Source: Aquificales bacterium (GTDB taxonomy: Bacteria > Aquificota > Aquificia > Aquificales > Aquificaceae). From it: 43,023 nt of DNA. The notes under the pieces are model-generated. The model saw only the letters and a program-made list of their open reading frames with translations. It was not told the origin of the DNA and did no database searches. This document shows, in pieces, positions 16,842 through 23,141 of the stretch. The first letter of the stretch is position 1, and every line of letters begins with the position of its first letter. Both the position numbers and the translations under genes were made by a program. The stretch spans positions 1-43,023 of the forward strand of contig JALWBR010000003.1 in the NCBI GenBank assembly GCA_027037055.1. The letters are read 5' to 3'.

Positions 16842-17072
16842 ATTTTTAAACACCTCTAAGCATGCCCTATATAAATATTTCTTTTTTCTTTCTTTATTAT
16901 TATACTATAATACCTAAATTTTAGCTCCAAGCTATTTTTGCAGCAAAATACTCATAACCAAATTAATGCTTTAAACACACTTCTTAAAGATAAATCCTGC
17001 TGTGAAGAAAAAGTTCGAGGAAAGGATAAAAGAGGAATCTTATCCACAACCTTTAAAGGATAAGTAACTTAC

Positions 17073-17357
17073 TCATCTATGCCATCTGCGCCTATGCCAA
17101 TACCCGCCTGGTCCCCAATACCAATCATCATCATCAGAATGTAGTGACTTTTGTTTTTCAAGAAACTTTTCCCATTTACTTTTTCTGCTTTCAACAACCT
17201 TAAGTATCTTTTTTCTCATTTTTTCGGGATCATGTTCTTGCTTAACAATGGTTTCTATAATATCTAATCTTTCTGAATCACTAAGATTTTTCAATTTTTC
17301 TTCCCACCTATTCTTCCTTTTTATGACCCCGAGTTTCCTGAGTAGCTCCATAAACAT
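17073..17357 (-). CDS. Small charged protein with Trp/His/Arg-rich tail, unknown
   Basis: The 94-residue product is not a family I know. Residues 1-70 are highly charged helix (RWEEKLKNLSDSERLDII, DPEKMRKKILKVVESRKSKWEKFL). The last 20 residues switch to DDDDWYWGPGGYWHRRRWHR, an acidic patch followed by Trp, Tyr, Gly, His and Arg. Such a tail could bind metal or nucleic acid, but that is only a suggestion. AGAGA lies upstream of the ATG as a modest ribosome site, and a TATACTAT element about 35 bases upstream may be its -10. It lies alone in the accessory island. Confidence 0.5.
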   Translation of the reverse strand: MFMELLRKLGVIKRKNRWEEKLKNLSDSERLDIIETIVKQEHDPEKMRKKILKVVESRKSKWEKFLEKQKSLHSDDDDWYWGPGGYWHRRRWHR

Positions 17358-17536
17358 ATTTAATCTCTCTTTTTAGAAATATATAGTATAAACTTAAAGT
17401 AACCTTATTTAATCATTTCCTCAGAAGATAATGTAAGTCCAGAGCAAGAAGTAGTCGTTAGGAAAAAATTTGCGTCTAATCCTCTCCTTTTTATAGCTAA
17501 AACATAAGATACAAAAACCGAAGCAGAAAGTTGCCA

Positions 17537-17998
17537 TCAGGTTTGAGAAATCAGCTTAAGAAACTCTTCAGAAAGAGGATTGACAACTTTAATTTCCTTC
17601 CCTAAGAAACTTATCCTGTCGGGTGAAGGAACATCTTCGGATAATATAAGCCCTACGCCATTGTTGAAAGCAGAGGCTATTATTATGGCATCAAAATAAT
17701 CAAGATGTTTATAGCGTTTTCTGAGAGTCACGGCAGTCATAATGTCCTGAGGATTTTCCGTCAAAAATCTCACGCTTCCTGCAAAATCTTCAAGAATGTT
17801 CAGGACCTCGTTTTCTTCAAGTTTTTTCTTTTCAAGCAAAACTCTGCCCAGCTCCTTCATTACCTGAAGCGGAGCCAGAATCAGGAAGTCTTTTTCGCCC
17901 ATAGCAGAAAGCACCTCTCTCGCCTTATCCCCTTTCTCCGTATCGTCGGTCAACGCATATACCCATATGTTCGTATCAACCAAAACAGGGATAGCCAT
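17537..17998 (-). CDS. PIN-domain ribonuclease (VapC-like toxin), no antitoxin beside it
   Basis: The 153-residue protein is a PIN domain. 'VLVDTNIWVYAL' carries the first metal-binding Asp (Asp8), Glu49 lies in 'VMKELGRVLL', Asp103 in 'HLDYFDAIIIASA' and Asp122 in 'LILSEDV'. These acidic residues bind Mg for RNA cleavage. VapC toxins normally follow a small VapB antitoxin gene; none is visible in the 137 bases before it. A promoter-like TTGACA (18030-18035), 17-base gap, CACAAT (18007-18012) lies so close to the ATG that the message would be nearly leaderless. It could be an orphan toxin or a non-toxin PIN nuclease. Confidence 0.8.
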   Translation of the reverse strand: MAIPVLVDTNIWVYALTDDTEKGDKAREVLSAMGEKDFLILAPLQVMKELGRVLLEKKKLEENEVLNILEDFAGSVRFLTENPQDIMTAVTLRKRYKHLDYFDAIIIASAFNNGVGLILSEDVPSPDRISFLGKEIKVVNPLSEEFLKLISQT

Positions 17999-18006
17999 GG
18001 GTATTG

Positions 18007-18035
18007 ATTGTGATGTTAATCCGACTTAATGTCAA
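18007..18035 (-). promoter_or_regulatory. TTGACA-17-CACAAT promoter of the PIN gene
   Basis: On the minus strand a perfect -35 TTGACA (18035-18030) and a 4-of-6 -10 CACAAT (18012-18007) are 17 bases apart. The -10 ends 8 bases before the PIN start codon, with no ribosome site between, so transcription would start at or beside the ATG. Confidence 0.5.
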
Positions 18036-18088
18036 GACGTGGAAAACCCTAATGTTGACAAAGGGATTATTTATGTCAGACATATAGC

Positions 18089-18116
18089 TTGACTAATAAA
18101 AAGAAAAGTTTAAAAT
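18089..18116 (+). promoter_or_regulatory. TTGACT-16-TAAAAT promoter plus strong ribosome site
   Basis: TTGACT (18089-18094) and TAAAAT (18111-18116) are 16 bases apart and match the housekeeping sigma consensus well. TAAGGAGG follows at 18121-18128, 7 bases before the ATG at 18136. This is one of the clearest promoter/ribosome-site combinations in the window. Confidence 0.6.
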
Positions 18117-18135
18117 CAAATAAGGAGGTAGTTCT

Positions 18136-18645
18136 ATGGGACATGTTATACCCGTCAGGGAATCCAGGAAGGGTATAAGGTTTATCCTCGGAAGGGTTAT
18201 ATACCCCAAGGCCGATCCGGGAAGAGCTGAGGTAAAAGTTATAAAGCCGGGAGAGGCCAAGGTTATAGTTGGAAGGAAGGGAGTTTATGTCCTTGATGAT
18301 GCCCTTGCGGAAGGGGCAATAAGGGAAGCTTGGAAGGAGTATCTCGGGAAGTATAAGGAACCGGGCATCAGGTCCGGGAAAGACATCATAGACCGCCCCG
18401 TGGAAGTCACGGAGAGCTTTCTGAGAGAGTTTTTGAAAAGAAAGGGCGTAGGAGAGCTTCTCGTGAGAGGTTTTATATCCTTCGGTGTTGAAGGTAGTAA
18501 TATTAGGGAGGTTCTTGAACTTGCCGAAAGATTTAAACACATTGACAAGGTGAAAAACGGCCGTGAGGTAGAAGCTCTTTACTTCGGTGAAGAGAAGAAG
18601 TCACGTTCGGAGATAAAAGTTTCAAGAAAGTACACGGGGTCCTGA
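18136..18645 (+). CDS. Unrecognised 169-residue protein beside the CRISPR array
   Basis: I do not recognise this protein. The first ~55 residues look beta-rich (GHVIPVRESRKGIRFILGRV, AEVKVIKPGEAKVIVGRKGVYVL), like a small barrel. The rest is mainly helical and charged ('AIREAWKEYLGKYKEPG', 'VTESFLREFLKRKGVGELLVRGF', 'IREVLELAERFKHIDKVKNGREVEALYF') and ends in a basic tail. There is no signal peptide or membrane segment, so it should be cytosolic and possibly binds nucleic acid. It has a strong promoter and ribosome site, and its codon choice looks richer in G and C than the AT-rich genes to its left. It lies between a PIN nuclease and the CRISPR array; a link to either is speculation. Confidence 0.6.
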   Translation: MGHVIPVRESRKGIRFILGRVIYPKADPGRAEVKVIKPGEAKVIVGRKGVYVLDDALAEGAIREAWKEYLGKYKEPGIRSGKDIIDRPVEVTESFLREFLKRKGVGELLVRGFISFGVEGSNIREVLELAERFKHIDKVKNGREVEALYFGEEKKSRSEIKVSRKYTGS

Positions 18646-18767
18646 ACATCGGAAATTTCGTAAGTTTCTTCTATCAGTTTCTTGAGCTTCGGACCCTCTC
18701 TACCGTTCAATCTGACATTTGTTACCTTGAAGAATGCATAACTTGAGAAAGTTCTAAGAGCAATATC
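18579..18767 (-). pseudogene. Open-frame remnant, protein-like, no proper start
   Basis: On the minus strand a 62-codon frame without ATG reads FFKVTNVRLNGREGPKLKK, then LIEETYEISDVQDPVYFLETF. Its charged, well-mixed composition looks like true protein rather than an antisense artefact. About 120 of its 189 bases lie outside any gene; the rest overlaps the end of the plus-strand gene at 18136. It is in the same frame as the fragment at 18789-18951, with two stop codons between. The two may be parts of one decayed gene. No family was recognised. Confidence 0.25.
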
Positions 18768-18788
18768 TTAACCGGTACAACAACCACT

Positions 18789-18951
18789 TCAATACGGTTC
18801 TACCTTCCCCTCTTCCAGTTCTTTAAGAGCCTTTAAGGAGGACTCGGACAGCTCCGCATCTCTTACTTTCGCAAGCCTGCCCTCATAGGGATAGGGTGGA
18901 ACCGCACCTTCAATCTTGAGTTCAAAGGGTATGCCCCCGTTCCTTACCACA
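18789..18951 (-). pseudogene. C-terminal gene fragment abutting the CRISPR array
   Basis: Directly after the last CRISPR repeat on the minus strand, a frame reads VVRNGGIPFELKIEGAV, then PPYPYEGRLAKVRDAEL, then SESSLKALKELEEGKVEPY and stop. It looks like the C-terminus of a small protein; the final amphipathic helix is loosely antitoxin-like. The frame is open through the last repeat, where an in-repeat ATG (18978-18980) could serve as a start, but no ribosome site is seen. Best read as a gene whose front was replaced by the array, or as a short orphan frame. Confidence 0.3.
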
Positions 18952-19434
18952 GTCGCAATCCCTTCTCTTCCTAAGGGCATTTCAACAGATTAGATCTCCG
19001 CTCGGAGCAGGAGCAAGCTCAGACTGGTCGCAATCCCTTCTCTTCCTAAGGGCATTTCAACAAAACGGGAGGATTTAGGCATGAGTAAAAAGAACAAGCT
19101 CGTCGCAATCCCTTCTCTTCCTAAGGGCATTTCAACAGCTTCCAAGTCACATTAGGAAAGAGCTTCTGCTATATGGCTGTCGCAATCCCTTCTCTTCCTA
19201 AGGGCATTTCAACTGGCAAGATGATCTGACCTACGAGGATCTCAGGAAGGAGTCGCAATCCCTTCTCTTCCTAAGGGCATTTCAACAGTCATGAGGGAAC
19301 ACAGGTTTGAATTTGAATTAGGTGAGTCGCAATCCCTTCTCTTCCTAAGGGCATTTCAACCAGACCGACAGTCATATAGGCAAGAGATAGAAAAGTACAG
19401 TCGCAATCCCTTCTCTTCCTAAGGGCATTTCAAC
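18952..19434 (-). CRISPR. CRISPR array, 7 identical 35-bp repeats and 6 spacers
   Basis: Repeats lie at 18952-18986, 19027-19061, 19102-19136, 19179-19213, 19252-19286, 19326-19360 and 19400-19434, all identical. Spacers are 40, 40, 42, 38, 39 and 39 bases. On the minus strand the unit starts GTTGAAATGC and ends GGATTGCGAC. The last eight bases ATTGCGAC match the form of the 5' handle that Cas6 leaves on crRNAs (ATTGAAAC-like; the same ATTGCGAC is known from Thermus type III-associated repeats). CCCTT and AAGGG inside the unit form a 5-bp stem. This sets transcription to the minus strand, with the leader at 19435 onward. No cas operon adjoins it. The perfect repeat at the far end suggests little decay. 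Confidence 0.97.
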
Positions 19435-19691
19435 CCTTCATTTTTTATTATTTTATATCAAAAACTTACAACATAGGAATGTGCATTTTTAAACCCGAAT
19501 TTCGGGAAATGCTTGGGAATCAACAGTTAGCATAAAATCTTTGTGTATCAAGGGTTTCGTGCGAAAAAGCGTATTCTTAAAACAATGTGCCTATATCACC
19601 TTAACTTAAACCTTTGATGTATCAATATATTAAAGAAACGGTAAATTGTCTTTATATGATATTGGTCATAATTTTAATTTCCTAAGGTTTA
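19435..19691 (-). promoter_or_regulatory. CRISPR leader region
   Basis: This 257-base gene-free stretch between argH and the array is strongly AT-rich next to the repeats. On the minus strand TATAAAAT lies about 15 bases before the first repeat and is a probable -10 for pre-crRNA transcription. A near-palindrome CCCGAA-T-TTCGGG lies at 19494-19506 and could be a binding site used in spacer acquisition or promoter control. No open frame of note is present. Confidence 0.6.
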
Positions 19692-21074
19692 TCAAGGACT
19701 TATCCCTTCCTCCCTTTTTGCGATTTCAATGTAGTTGAGTATGCTTTCCTTTGATGTGCCTCCGAAGGAAGTTCTTCTATCCGCGACTTTTTGCGGAGAA
19801 AGTATCTCAAATATGTCTTCGGAGAATGCGGGAGAGAAATTCTTAAACTCTTCAAGGGAAAGCTCTTCAAGTCTTTTATGTTCCTTAATAACATACATGG
19901 CTATATTCCCTGCTATTGCGTGGGCTTCCCTGAAGGGGATTCCTTTACCGACGAGGTAGTTTGCCACATCGGTTATAAGCAAAAGGTTGCCCGCTTCCTT
20001 GCTTACCCTTTCTTCATTTATTTCCATTCCTTCAATTATCTTTATTACTGCAAAGATGGAGCTTTTTAATGTATCAGAGCTGTCAAAGAGGGGTTCTTTA
20101 TCTTCTTGCAAATCTCTGTTGTAGGCGGAAGGCAGACCTTTTAAAACCGTCATTAAATTCAAGAGGTTGCCGTAAAGCCTTCCTGTTTTTCCTCTCACAA
20201 GTTCAAGTACATCCGGATTCTTCTTTTGGGGCATTATTGAACTGCCCGTACATAATCTGTCCGGAAGATTTATAAAGGAAAACTCCTCCGATGCCCATAT
20301 AATCAGGTCTTCCGCAAGTCTTGATAAATGCATACCGGTTACCGCACATGCATAAAGGAAATCAAGTATAAAATCTCTGTCCGATGTCGCATACATTGAA
20401 TTCCTTGTTATTTTTGAAAAGTTAAGTTCATCAGCTGTAAGATAGCGATCTATAGGAAAATCAATACCGCTTACAGCTCCCGAGCCGAGGGGCATACTAT
20501 CGGATACCACATAGGCATTGGAGAATCTAAGAGAATCATATAAGAAAGCTTCTCTAAAGCTTAGAAAGTACAAGGAAACTCTTATAGGTTGGGCTTTTTG
20601 AAGATGCGTGTATGAAGGCATAACAACATCTACATATTTTTCCGCCTTTTTAATAAGCTCTATTCTCAACCTTCTTAAAAGGTCCTTTATTTCTTTTATA
20701 TTCTCTTTTATATAAAGCTTAACATCTGTTGCTACCTGATCATTTCTTGATCTTGCGGTATGTATCTTGCCCCCTGCCTTACCTATTCTATTTATAAGCT
20801 CCGCCTCTATATTCATGTGTACATCCTCATATTCCTTTTTCCAGTTAATCTTTCCTTCCTTTATATCTCTTTCTATCTCTTCCAAAGCTTTAAAGATATT
20901 TTTAAACTCTTCCTCCTTAAGTACACCCGCCTTATACAGCGCCTTTGCGTGGGCTTTGTTTTGTATGATATCGTAGATGGCGAGTCTTTTATCAAAGCTT
21001 ACGGATTCCGTAAACTCTTCAACAAATTTGTCAGTTTCCTCGGAAAATCTGCCTTCCCAAGCCTTCTTAAACAT
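19692..21074 (-). CDS. argH: Argininosuccinate lyase
   Basis: ArgH splits argininosuccinate into arginine and fumarate, the last step of arginine synthesis. The 460 residues contain 'WEGRFSEETDKFVEEFTESVSFD', 'EDVHMNIEAEL', 'TARSRNDQVATD', 'MPSYTHLQKAQPI', and the fumarase/aspartase superfamily signature GSSIMPQKKNPDVLELVRG with the catalytic Ser in its flexible loop. The length is normal. The start lies 21 bases after the copA stop. TATAAT ends 12 bases upstream of the ATG and there is no ribosome site. argB is about 9 kb away, so the pathway is not in an operon. Confidence 0.97.
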   Translation of the reverse strand: MFKKAWEGRFSEETDKFVEEFTESVSFDKRLAIYDIIQNKAHAKALYKAGVLKEEEFKNIFKALEEIERDIKEGKINWKKEYEDVHMNIEAELINRIGKAGGKIHTARSRNDQVATDVKLYIKENIKEIKDLLRRLRIELIKKAEKYVDVVMPSYTHLQKAQPIRVSLYFLSFREAFLYDSLRFSNAYVVSDSMPLGSGAVSGIDFPIDRYLTADELNFSKITRNSMYATSDRDFILDFLYACAVTGMHLSRLAEDLIIWASEEFSFINLPDRLCTGSSIMPQKKNPDVLELVRGKTGRLYGNLLNLMTVLKGLPSAYNRDLQEDKEPLFDSSDTLKSSIFAVIKIIEGMEINEERVSKEAGNLLLITDVANYLVGKGIPFREAHAIAGNIAMYVIKEHKRLEELSLEEFKNFSPAFSEDIFEILSPQKVADRRTSFGGTSKESILNYIEIAKREEGISP

Positions 21075-21095
21075 AGGACTGTAAGGATTATAACA

Positions 21096-23141
21096 TCACT
21101 TTCTTATAGAGTTTATAACAACGCTGAGGGATGACAAAGCCATCATCATACCTGCAATCTCTGGTTTTATCACAAGCCCCGCCCATGATAGAAATCCCCC
21201 AGCGAGGGGAATGGCAAGCACGTTATAAACAAAAGCCCACATAAGGTTTTGTTTTATCCTTGCGTAGGTTTTATCGGAGTGGGCAATAAGGTAAGGGATT
21301 GTTTTAATTCCCTCAAGTAAGATAACATCACCCACCCTTTTTGCTATATCTGCACCTTCGGCTACCGCTATTGAAACATCCGCCTTTGCAAGGGCGAGAG
21401 CATCATTTATACCATCACCCACCATTGCCACCTTATGACCCCTTCTCTGGAACAGCTCTGTTATCCTTAGTTTGTCTTCCGGTTTACTGTCAGCGTATAT
21501 TTCATCTATTCCCAGCTCCTTTCCCACCTTCATAGCTTGCACCCTTGAATCACCCGTTAAAAGGACCGTTTTTATACCCCTATTCTTTATAGAAGAGACA
21601 ACCTCCTTAGCTTCTTCTCTTATCTTATCTTTAAGATAAAAAATTACGAAAGGTTTTTCTTCGGTTCCTACACCCACGGTTATGTAGCCGTCCTTATTTT
21701 CAATACCCCACTTTGAAACACTCGTTGCTATATAATCTCCGCACTTTACTCCAAATCCCTTTATTTCTTTACAGTTTTTTAAAGGGGAAGCATCCTTAAC
21801 CCTTTCTTTGCAGAATTCATATATTGCTTTTGCAATGGGATGATTTGATGTGCTTTCTATTGAAAGGGCAATTCCGAGTCCCTTTTCATCAAATACATCA
21901 ACCTTTTCAACAGACATTTTACCCTCCGTTAAGGTTCCTGTTTTGTCAAATATGAATATGTCAACGAAGGGCATCTTTTCAAATACAGAGGTGTCTCTTA
22001 TAATCACACCCTTCTTAAGAGCCCTACTTACACCGGAAGTTATAGCAAGGGGTGTGGCTATACCAAGTGCACACGGACAAGAAACAACAAGTATTGATAG
22101 GGTAAACTGAATACTTTTGTATATATCACCTGATACTAAGAACCAGAACATAAATGTAAAGAAGGAGAACAGTATAACACCTTCCACGAAGTAGGTTGAT
22201 ACCTTGTCCACAAGCCTTTGAATTTTGGGTTTTTTTGAAAAGGTTGAAGCCACTGCCTTTGACAATTGAAAGGCATAACTTTCCTTAAAGGGCTTTTCAA
22301 CCTCTATAAGTACTTTACCTCCCTCCAATATAGAACCAGAAATTACTCTATCTCCCTTGCTTTTATGAACAGGTATTCCTTCACCTGTTACTATACTTTC
22401 ATTGATGTATGCATCACCTTCAACTATTACACCGTCCACAGGACAAAGATTCCCGCTTTTCAGTTCCAGGATATCTCCCTTTCTTATGCTGTTTATATTC
22501 ACATATTCCTCCTTCCCGTTTCTTATTACTTTGAAGTCCTCAACCGTAAGATGGGCTATGGAAAACAGATCTCTTAATGCCCTGTTTTTTATTTTTTCCT
22601 CAATAAACTTTCCGAGCTTTACAAAGGTGATTATGAAAACTGGCGTCTCAAAAAAGGGGGTACTTTCAATTATATGAAGGAAGGCAAGAATACTGTATAT
22701 ATAGGCACCTGTTGTACCTACGGATACAAGAACCTCCATATTGCCCACGCCTTCTTTAAGAGCTTTGAAGGCTTTGAGGTAAAATCCGTAACCGCCTATA
22801 ATTTGGACAAAGGTTGATAAGAGGAGCTGTATATACAAGGATCCAGGAAAGGACAGAAACATATCCGCTATAAAATAGGCGGATGCAATAATGCAAAAGA
22901 TAAGTATATACTCCTCTCTTATCCTGCTTTTTAAATCCCTCTTTACCCTATAGCCGAGCTTTTCTATCTCCCTTGTTATCTCCTCTTCACTGACAAGAAA
23001 CTCATTAAACTCTATCTCCGCCTGCTTCAGTGTAAAAGACACCTTTATATTCTCAACACCTTCAACCTTTGATATATGTTTCTCTATAACCTTCGCGCAG
23101 TTGACACATGTCATATCCTCTATCTTCAGAACCTTTCTCAT
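21096..23141 (-). CDS. copA: Copper-exporting P-type ATPase (P1B-1)
   Basis: The 681-residue protein has one N-terminal heavy-metal domain (MTCVNC, Cys12 and Cys15) and eight predicted membrane helices. It has the ion-binding CPC in 'VVSCPCALGIATPLAITSG', the phosphorylation site DKTGTLTEG, the nucleotide-domain 'SNHPIAKAI', and 'MVGDGINDALALAKADV'. The later helices carry the YN ('FVYNVLAIPLA') and MxxSS ('MMALSSLSVV') motifs that define Cu(I) pumps. It should expel Cu(I) from the cytoplasm. The length is shorter than two-domain CopA proteins but normal for the single-domain type. No CopZ chaperone gene is adjacent. Confidence 0.93.
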   Translation of the reverse strand: MRKVLKIEDMTCVNCAKVIEKHISKVEGVENIKVSFTLKQAEIEFNEFLVSEEEITREIEKLGYRVKRDLKSRIREEYILIFCIIASAYFIADMFLSFPGSLYIQLLLSTFVQIIGGYGFYLKAFKALKEGVGNMEVLVSVGTTGAYIYSILAFLHIIESTPFFETPVFIITFVKLGKFIEEKIKNRALRDLFSIAHLTVEDFKVIRNGKEEYVNINSIRKGDILELKSGNLCPVDGVIVEGDAYINESIVTGEGIPVHKSKGDRVISGSILEGGKVLIEVEKPFKESYAFQLSKAVASTFSKKPKIQRLVDKVSTYFVEGVILFSFFTFMFWFLVSGDIYKSIQFTLSILVVSCPCALGIATPLAITSGVSRALKKGVIIRDTSVFEKMPFVDIFIFDKTGTLTEGKMSVEKVDVFDEKGLGIALSIESTSNHPIAKAIYEFCKERVKDASPLKNCKEIKGFGVKCGDYIATSVSKWGIENKDGYITVGVGTEEKPFVIFYLKDKIREEAKEVVSSIKNRGIKTVLLTGDSRVQAMKVGKELGIDEIYADSKPEDKLRITELFQRRGHKVAMVGDGINDALALAKADVSIAVAEGADIAKRVGDVILLEGIKTIPYLIAHSDKTYARIKQNLMWAFVYNVLAIPLAGGFLSWAGLVIKPEIAGMMMALSSLSVVINSIRK

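Follow-up and report, generated by a model that had tools for sequence, protein, structure and literature searches.

The gene of no known family at 18136-18645 (+) in the window, by which we mean the whole 43,023-nt stretch of Aquificales DNA analyzed here, most likely encodes the antitoxin of a small, mobile toxin-antitoxin pair found among Aquifex-like bacteria. Comparisons of sequence and gene order make it probable that this gene and the PIN-domain gene at 17537-17998 (-) are the two halves of one small mobile module in which the antitoxin has been replaced. We lean slightly towards a narrower reading as well, namely that the pair may be an undescribed variant in which a VapC-like PIN toxin is held by an approximately 150-aa antitoxin of unrecognised fold that replaces a small one, and in which head-to-head copies are driven from two outward promoters, not from one operon.

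The open reading frame (ORF) at 18136-18645 (+) consists of 169 codons, begins with ATG and carries a ribosome site, AAGGAGGT. A promoter-like sequence, TTGACT-16-TAAAAT, was located by a consensus scan at 18089-18116 (+) with 10/12 matches. An alignment with the two nearest relatives, G018 and G010, shows this promoter-like sequence and the ribosome site conserved in both. The dN/dS value between the window and the closest relative, G018, was 0.17 for the first 133 codons. The 169-codon gene is real and under purifying selection. The first-pass annotation of this DNA had called it a real gene with a promoter and a ribosome site, and this description held, since the ORF is intact and both sites recur in relatives. 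The same annotation spoke of a protein of 169 residues, which is right for the frame and needs correction for the family. The DNA similarity to G018 covers 17536-18533 at 89% identity and ends at 18533. Thus, only about residues 1-133 belong to the family (native part, 18136-18533), and the last approximately 36 residues come from foreign DNA (3′ tail, 18534-18645); this division is based on the family matches, the end of the G018 similarity and dN/dS. The G018 partner has 143 aa, with its stop about ten residues past the similarity break. The window gene therefore has a hybrid 3′ end, and this foreign C-terminus counts against the main reading. In AlphaFold2 models, residues 1-100 formed a confident core (pLDDT block means of 82-95 for the window protein and 73-95 for that of G046) with strands and one long helix, and the C-terminal part was poorly predicted.

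The neighbor that proved relevant, a PIN gene on the opposite strand across a gap of 137 bp, lay outside the interval to which the first-pass annotation had confined itself. This gene (17537-17998, -) encodes a putative toxin of 153 aa, which matches Pfam PIN with 59.8 bits against a cut-off of 23.6. Four acidic residues, D8, E49, D103 and D122, which we take to be the catalytic positions, are invariant across 10 aligned PIN relatives. The dN/dS value of the PIN gene was 0.11 between the window and G018. Between G082 and G088, the values were 0.12 for the partner and 0.09 for PIN; between G037 and G046, the partner gave 0.24, and one PIN gene of that pair is broken. The divergent gap of 137 bp (17999-18135) carries two outward promoter-like sites in the consensus scan, the partner site at 18089-18116 (+) and a PIN site at 18035-18007 (-). 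The gap shares 85% identity with its G018 counterpart, and both sites are conserved in the alignment of G018 and G010. When inverted repeats were sought as operators, no pattern common to all six divergent gaps was found.

Across 136 genomes of the phylum, both a protein search and profile A1 detected the partner family in 12, at 14 places in all; the E-values are per genome, and the genomes in the sample are few. The profile and alignment A1 were built from 12 of the 14 places; G023, where the partner is a fragment, and G005, where it lies at a contig edge, were left out. In a sample of 293 relatives, the same 12 genomes carried the family. A search of one other phylum gave a match in 0 of 30 genomes, an empty answer that shows nothing. 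Full-length homologues have 138-157 aa, and G010 carries three separate copies in a single genome. The closest pairs (window and G018, G082 and G088, G037 and G046) are not independent.

The first-pass annotation had placed the protein in no known family, and the searches agree with it. No credible model match was obtained in Pfam, NCBIfam or PADLOC. The best PHROGs match had an E-value of 0.00025, to a nameless PHROG over 33 positions in 3 of 12 members, and the best PADLOC match had an E-value of 0.0079, to a nameless family in 1 of 12 members. A sequence match in the PDB to 4mkm, a putative surface anchored protein (E 0.00031, columns 41-133 of 148), was judged to be chance. The two structure models gave no PDB match at E 0.001; the best Z scores were 3.2 and 3.5, and known antitoxin folds were absent from the lists. 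Against viral structures, no match was found at E 0.001. Among viral contigs, five candidates were picked up by pattern and none was confirmed; a search of plasmids with the G088 query gave no match, and one scan of genome contigs returned the G018 contig as the sole match. No description of the family was found in the literature, including the available portions of PMC2701414, PMC12669027, PMC13153721, PMC2374986, PMC4803016, PMC10440598 and PMC2446400. Pfam, NCBIfam and the structure searches of the two models thus linked the partner to no known DNA-binding domain or antitoxin fold, which is a point against the main reading, although the structure searches exclude no such fold. The protein might instead be a working subunit of a two-part nuclease or of an RNA-directed defence complex, not an antitoxin. 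Its size, which exceeds that of ordinary antitoxins, and a weak structural likeness to restriction and homing endonucleases, among them PvuII (Z 3.2) and I-Ssp6803I (Z 2.9), would fit such a role. However, these Z scores are within noise by the structure tool's own note, the partner alignment contains eight invariant columns with one acidic residue among them and no obvious catalytic set, and the partner is found where related modules have an ORF of antitoxin size, as described below. We therefore regard a subunit role as quite improbable.

The partner is conserved next to PIN genes. An intact PIN gene adjoins it at 10 of the 14 places and a truncated one at a further place, with a chance of PIN adjacency of approximately 0.6% per place by our own estimate (5 PIN matches among about 1,700 genes). 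Six intact pairs are head-to-head, with 135-159 bp between the likely starts (the window, G018, two of the three G010 copies, G001 and G046). The other four, in G082, G088, G095 and the third G010 copy, are co-directional and 0-18 bp apart. That 6 of 10 intact pairs are divergent is unusual for type II modules and weighs against the main reading. So does the partner of G127, which has no adjacent PIN gene: no match to the PIN profile was found within 17 kb. The surrounding chromosomal genes vary between the places; only the closely related G082 and G088 have them in common. In Aquifex aeolicus VF5 (G001), which is assigned to the same family as the genome of the window, the pair is carried on the plasmid ece1 and annotated as 'PIN domain-containing protein' and 'hypothetical protein'. 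Over the 10 pairs, PIN distances and partner distances are correlated (r 0.93, permutation p 5e-5), and shared history may be part of the cause.

In G037, the PIN gene is cut off after about 60 residues. This truncated gene overlaps, in antisense, an 89-aa ORF (L022 7909-8178). The 89-aa ORF may correspond to the start of a Panacea/SocA-type antitoxin, and the overlap would then be another sign of shuffling among toxin-antitoxin modules.

Related PIN genes lacking the partner served as a control. A PIN profile (A2) built from the 10 intact partner-linked PINs detected 46 places at E 1e-10, distributed over 33 of the 136 genomes. We fetched 27 partner-less PIN genes, 23 from other genomes and four further ones from the window's own genome, and used 22 of them (21 from other genomes and the own-genome PIN on contig C30). 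L092 and L094 have PIN frames interrupted by a stop and entered neither the tree nor the upstream-ORF count; the distant own-genome PINs L097-L099, which show no upstream ORF of the type described next, are outside the tree and the 22. A same-strand ORF of 55-86 aa ends at or overlaps the PIN start in 20 of the 22 controls, and in the remaining two none was found. These small ORFs are unrelated in sequence to the approximately 150-aa family, and the partner profile had no match in the flanks of the 27 control PINs. In the PIN tree, 21 of 22 control PINs form one clade with support of 100/99, and all 10 partner-linked PINs fall outside it; the C30 PIN, which has an AbrB-like neighbor, sits on a very long branch, and its placement is unsure. 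In the co-directional pairs, the approximately 150-aa gene occupies the exact slot of the 55-86-aa antitoxin-like ORF. Since the small ORF lies upstream in 20 of 22 controls and the partner profile is absent there, the approximately 150-aa protein takes the position of the antitoxin and is no additional component.

The first-pass annotation had proposed the protein as a new CRISPR-associated or defence-linked factor, and had suggested asking whether homologues sit beside arrays or PIN genes. The PIN genes were found (10 intact and one truncated at the 14 places) and the arrays were not: of the 13 other places, just one has an array within its fetched flank (4.8-18 kb), at a distance of 8.4 kb from the gene. 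The CRISPR link was rejected on this count, and the link to defence is plausible in the wide, toxin-antitoxin sense. The array of the window (18952-19434, -) has seven identical repeats and six spacers, as taken from the listing of repeats and the comparison of its flank with G061. As the flank from 19435 recurs beside two G061 arrays, the leader would be on the 19435 side and the repeat at 18952 the oldest. The spacers, compared with the fetched loci, matched only the window's own copies apart from one match of 14 bases. No Cas9-sized ORF was found in the window, where the longest ORF (937 aa) reads as isoleucyl-tRNA synthetase. The protein might be associated with CRISPR or linked to arrays, and the PIN protein might assist it in the manner of PcrIIC1. 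In favor of such a role, the gene is 0.3 kb from the array in the window, and the PIN protein has its nearest relative of solved structure in PcrIIC1, reportedly the subject of Zhang et al. 2024. However, besides the near absence of arrays from the other fetched flanks, the side of the array varies between same-genus genomes, and PcrIIC1 is far closer to a PIN protein of the small-antitoxin clade, that of G082 with a small upstream ORF (L079 889-1311; E 3.7e-15), than to the window PIN (E 0.00047). This stronger match means that the likeness is no argument for a CRISPR role of the window PIN, and we consider such a role highly improbable. From these sequence matches there are hints that PcrIIC1 may be kin to toxin-antitoxin PIN proteins.

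Near the array of G061, a 526-aa ORF (L067 672-2252) with a Cas12f1-like TNB domain (PF07282, E 4.4e-11) lies approximately 3.5 kb away. It is probably an IS605-family TnpB, and among the matches listed there was no alignment of this ORF to the window.

Two frames, 18579-18767 and 18789-18951, lie next to the array on the minus strand. The first-pass annotation had noticed that they share a frame with stops between them and that the frame runs into the terminal repeat, which is correct, and had read them as one decayed gene, which is not; its picture of a gene and frames packed against the array was thus confirmed in part. The frame at 18789-18951 (-), 54 codons and a stop, represents the 3′ end of a relB/dinJ antitoxin gene whose 5′ part is missing. 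The DNA at 18785-18952 matches locus L034 of G023 at 94% identity, over the 3′ portion of a relB/dinJ gene, and the 54 residues share 90.7% identity with the C-terminal end of the protein encoded there. The intact L034 gene passes the cut-offs of TIGR02384 and Pfam RelB, and the remnant alone matched no NCBIfam model. The remnant lacks the intact N-terminal ribbon-helix-helix part and has a CRISPR repeat in its place. Since its homologues stop at the same position (EPY*), 18789 is the true C-terminus and 18579-18767 is not a continuation. The frame 18579-18767 had no Pfam match at E 0.1. It lies, with the tail of the partner ORF, in a stretch (18534-18784) with hardly any relatives; in the DNA of 18530-18800, matches of only 31 and 24 bases were found, in one of 136 genomes. 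The natural stop at 18789 in homologues and the lack of joint matches across 18530-18800 rule out a single decayed gene.

An ATG at 18978-18980, inside the repeat on the minus strand, is in frame with the relB remnant and gives a 63-aa ORF (18980-18789), for which no ribosome site was seen. At 17073-17357, 1.4 kb from the remnant, the window has a 94-aa gene of no known family, which in G023 (L034 7367-7711) directly follows relB. Among 64 genomes of the taxonomic family, four carry this gene, that of the window included.

The module lies in an island. The segments 17006-17450 and 19251-21109 align to contig C5 of the same-genus genome G061 at 95-96%, and nothing from 17451 to the repeat aligns; the interval 17451-18951 is thus unlike G061 between conserved flanks. 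At the junction 18951/18952, the oldest repeat meets the relB 3′ part exactly at the repeat edge. In G061 (L067 5797/5798), the oldest repeat likewise gives way, precisely at its edge, to roughly the final 78 codons of a traH-type gene, whose G060 relative is a 463-aa TraH (PF06122, E 3.6e-37). Two same-genus arrays at one locus therefore end in different decapitated genes of the mobile-element kind, relB in the window and traH in G061. Three more ORFs on the G018 contig match ece1 at the protein level, and the partner gene of that contig adjoins the end of a gene whose G060 relative is traH. The carriage on ece1, the ece1-like ORFs of G018 and the traH-like end make a plasmid or conjugative-element origin likely.

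The break of similarity at 18533, followed by unassigned DNA and a broken relB, and the truncated copies elsewhere (the G037 PIN gene and the G023 partner) could also mean that the module, though toxin-antitoxin by origin, is decaying in the window, the hybrid C-terminus having disabled the partner. We consider this rather unlikely. Both frames are intact and the promoter and ribosome sites are kept, an intact PIN toxin with no working antitoxin should be costly, and the lost part amounts to only about ten residues within the C-terminal region of low confidence.

With a functional toxin-antitoxin module as the preferred reading, the PIN protein would be the toxin, by its family a metal-dependent RNase of the VapC type. 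The approximately 150-aa putative antitoxin would bind and silence it, and would probably repress both back-to-back promoters in the 137-bp gap. In the partner lineage, this unrelated protein holds the slot of the 55-86-aa ORF, and the pair also takes a head-to-head form. The pair likely moves by plasmid or conjugative element. Its island, which also holds the broken relB, would adjoin the old end of the array through an accident of insertion, not as part of CRISPR. If this is true, there is a new antitoxin family in a deep-branching thermophilic phylum, on a plasmid of the reference organism Aquifex aeolicus VF5. Related PIN toxins with unrelated partners would then provide a natural comparison, by which it becomes testable how a toxin changes its antitoxin without killing the cell. 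Since the head-to-head layout is outside the one-operon rule of usual searches, similar pairs may have been overlooked.

The relB remnant resembles RelB/DinJ in that 18789-18951 encodes the C-terminal part; it differs in that the N-terminal part is missing and the frame is joined to the CRISPR repeat. PcrIIC1 is described in the available text of PMC12669027 as a predicted PIN nuclease and pro-CRISPR factor of some II-C Cas9 loci. By profile it is a PIN relative of the window PIN protein (E 1.5e-13), whereas no Cas9-sized ORF, as a II-C cas9 locus would have, was found in the 43-kb window, and the likeness is stronger to the small-antitoxin clade. In the accessible portion of Makarova et al. 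2009 (PMC2701414), the predicted antitoxins adjacent to PIN are RHH, AbrB, PHD, DUF433, UPF0175, MerR, DUF104 and DUF217, and the survey retained co-directed neighbors within 100 bp that were seen at least 20 times. By this selection rule, as given there, a rare divergent pair would be passed over. As in our analysis, antitoxins were predicted from adjacency to PIN; by Pfam scan, none of the families named in that portion is the approximately 150-aa family. With type II VapBC, the pair shares a PIN-domain protein with a recurrent neighboring partner, a compact, scattered and plasmid-borne occurrence and, in the co-directional form, a partner directly upstream of PIN. However, the partner has 138-157 aa and no RHH, AbrB, Phd or other Pfam antitoxin match, and 6 of 10 intact pairs, that of the window included, are head-to-head. 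As the partner is not a small co-directional antitoxin, we do not file the pair as a classical VapBC member, although by analogy we think that it may work like one. The closest PIN relatives in the phylum are those of the other Aquificota PIN modules, which differ from the pair in their 55-86-aa upstream ORF (20 of 22).
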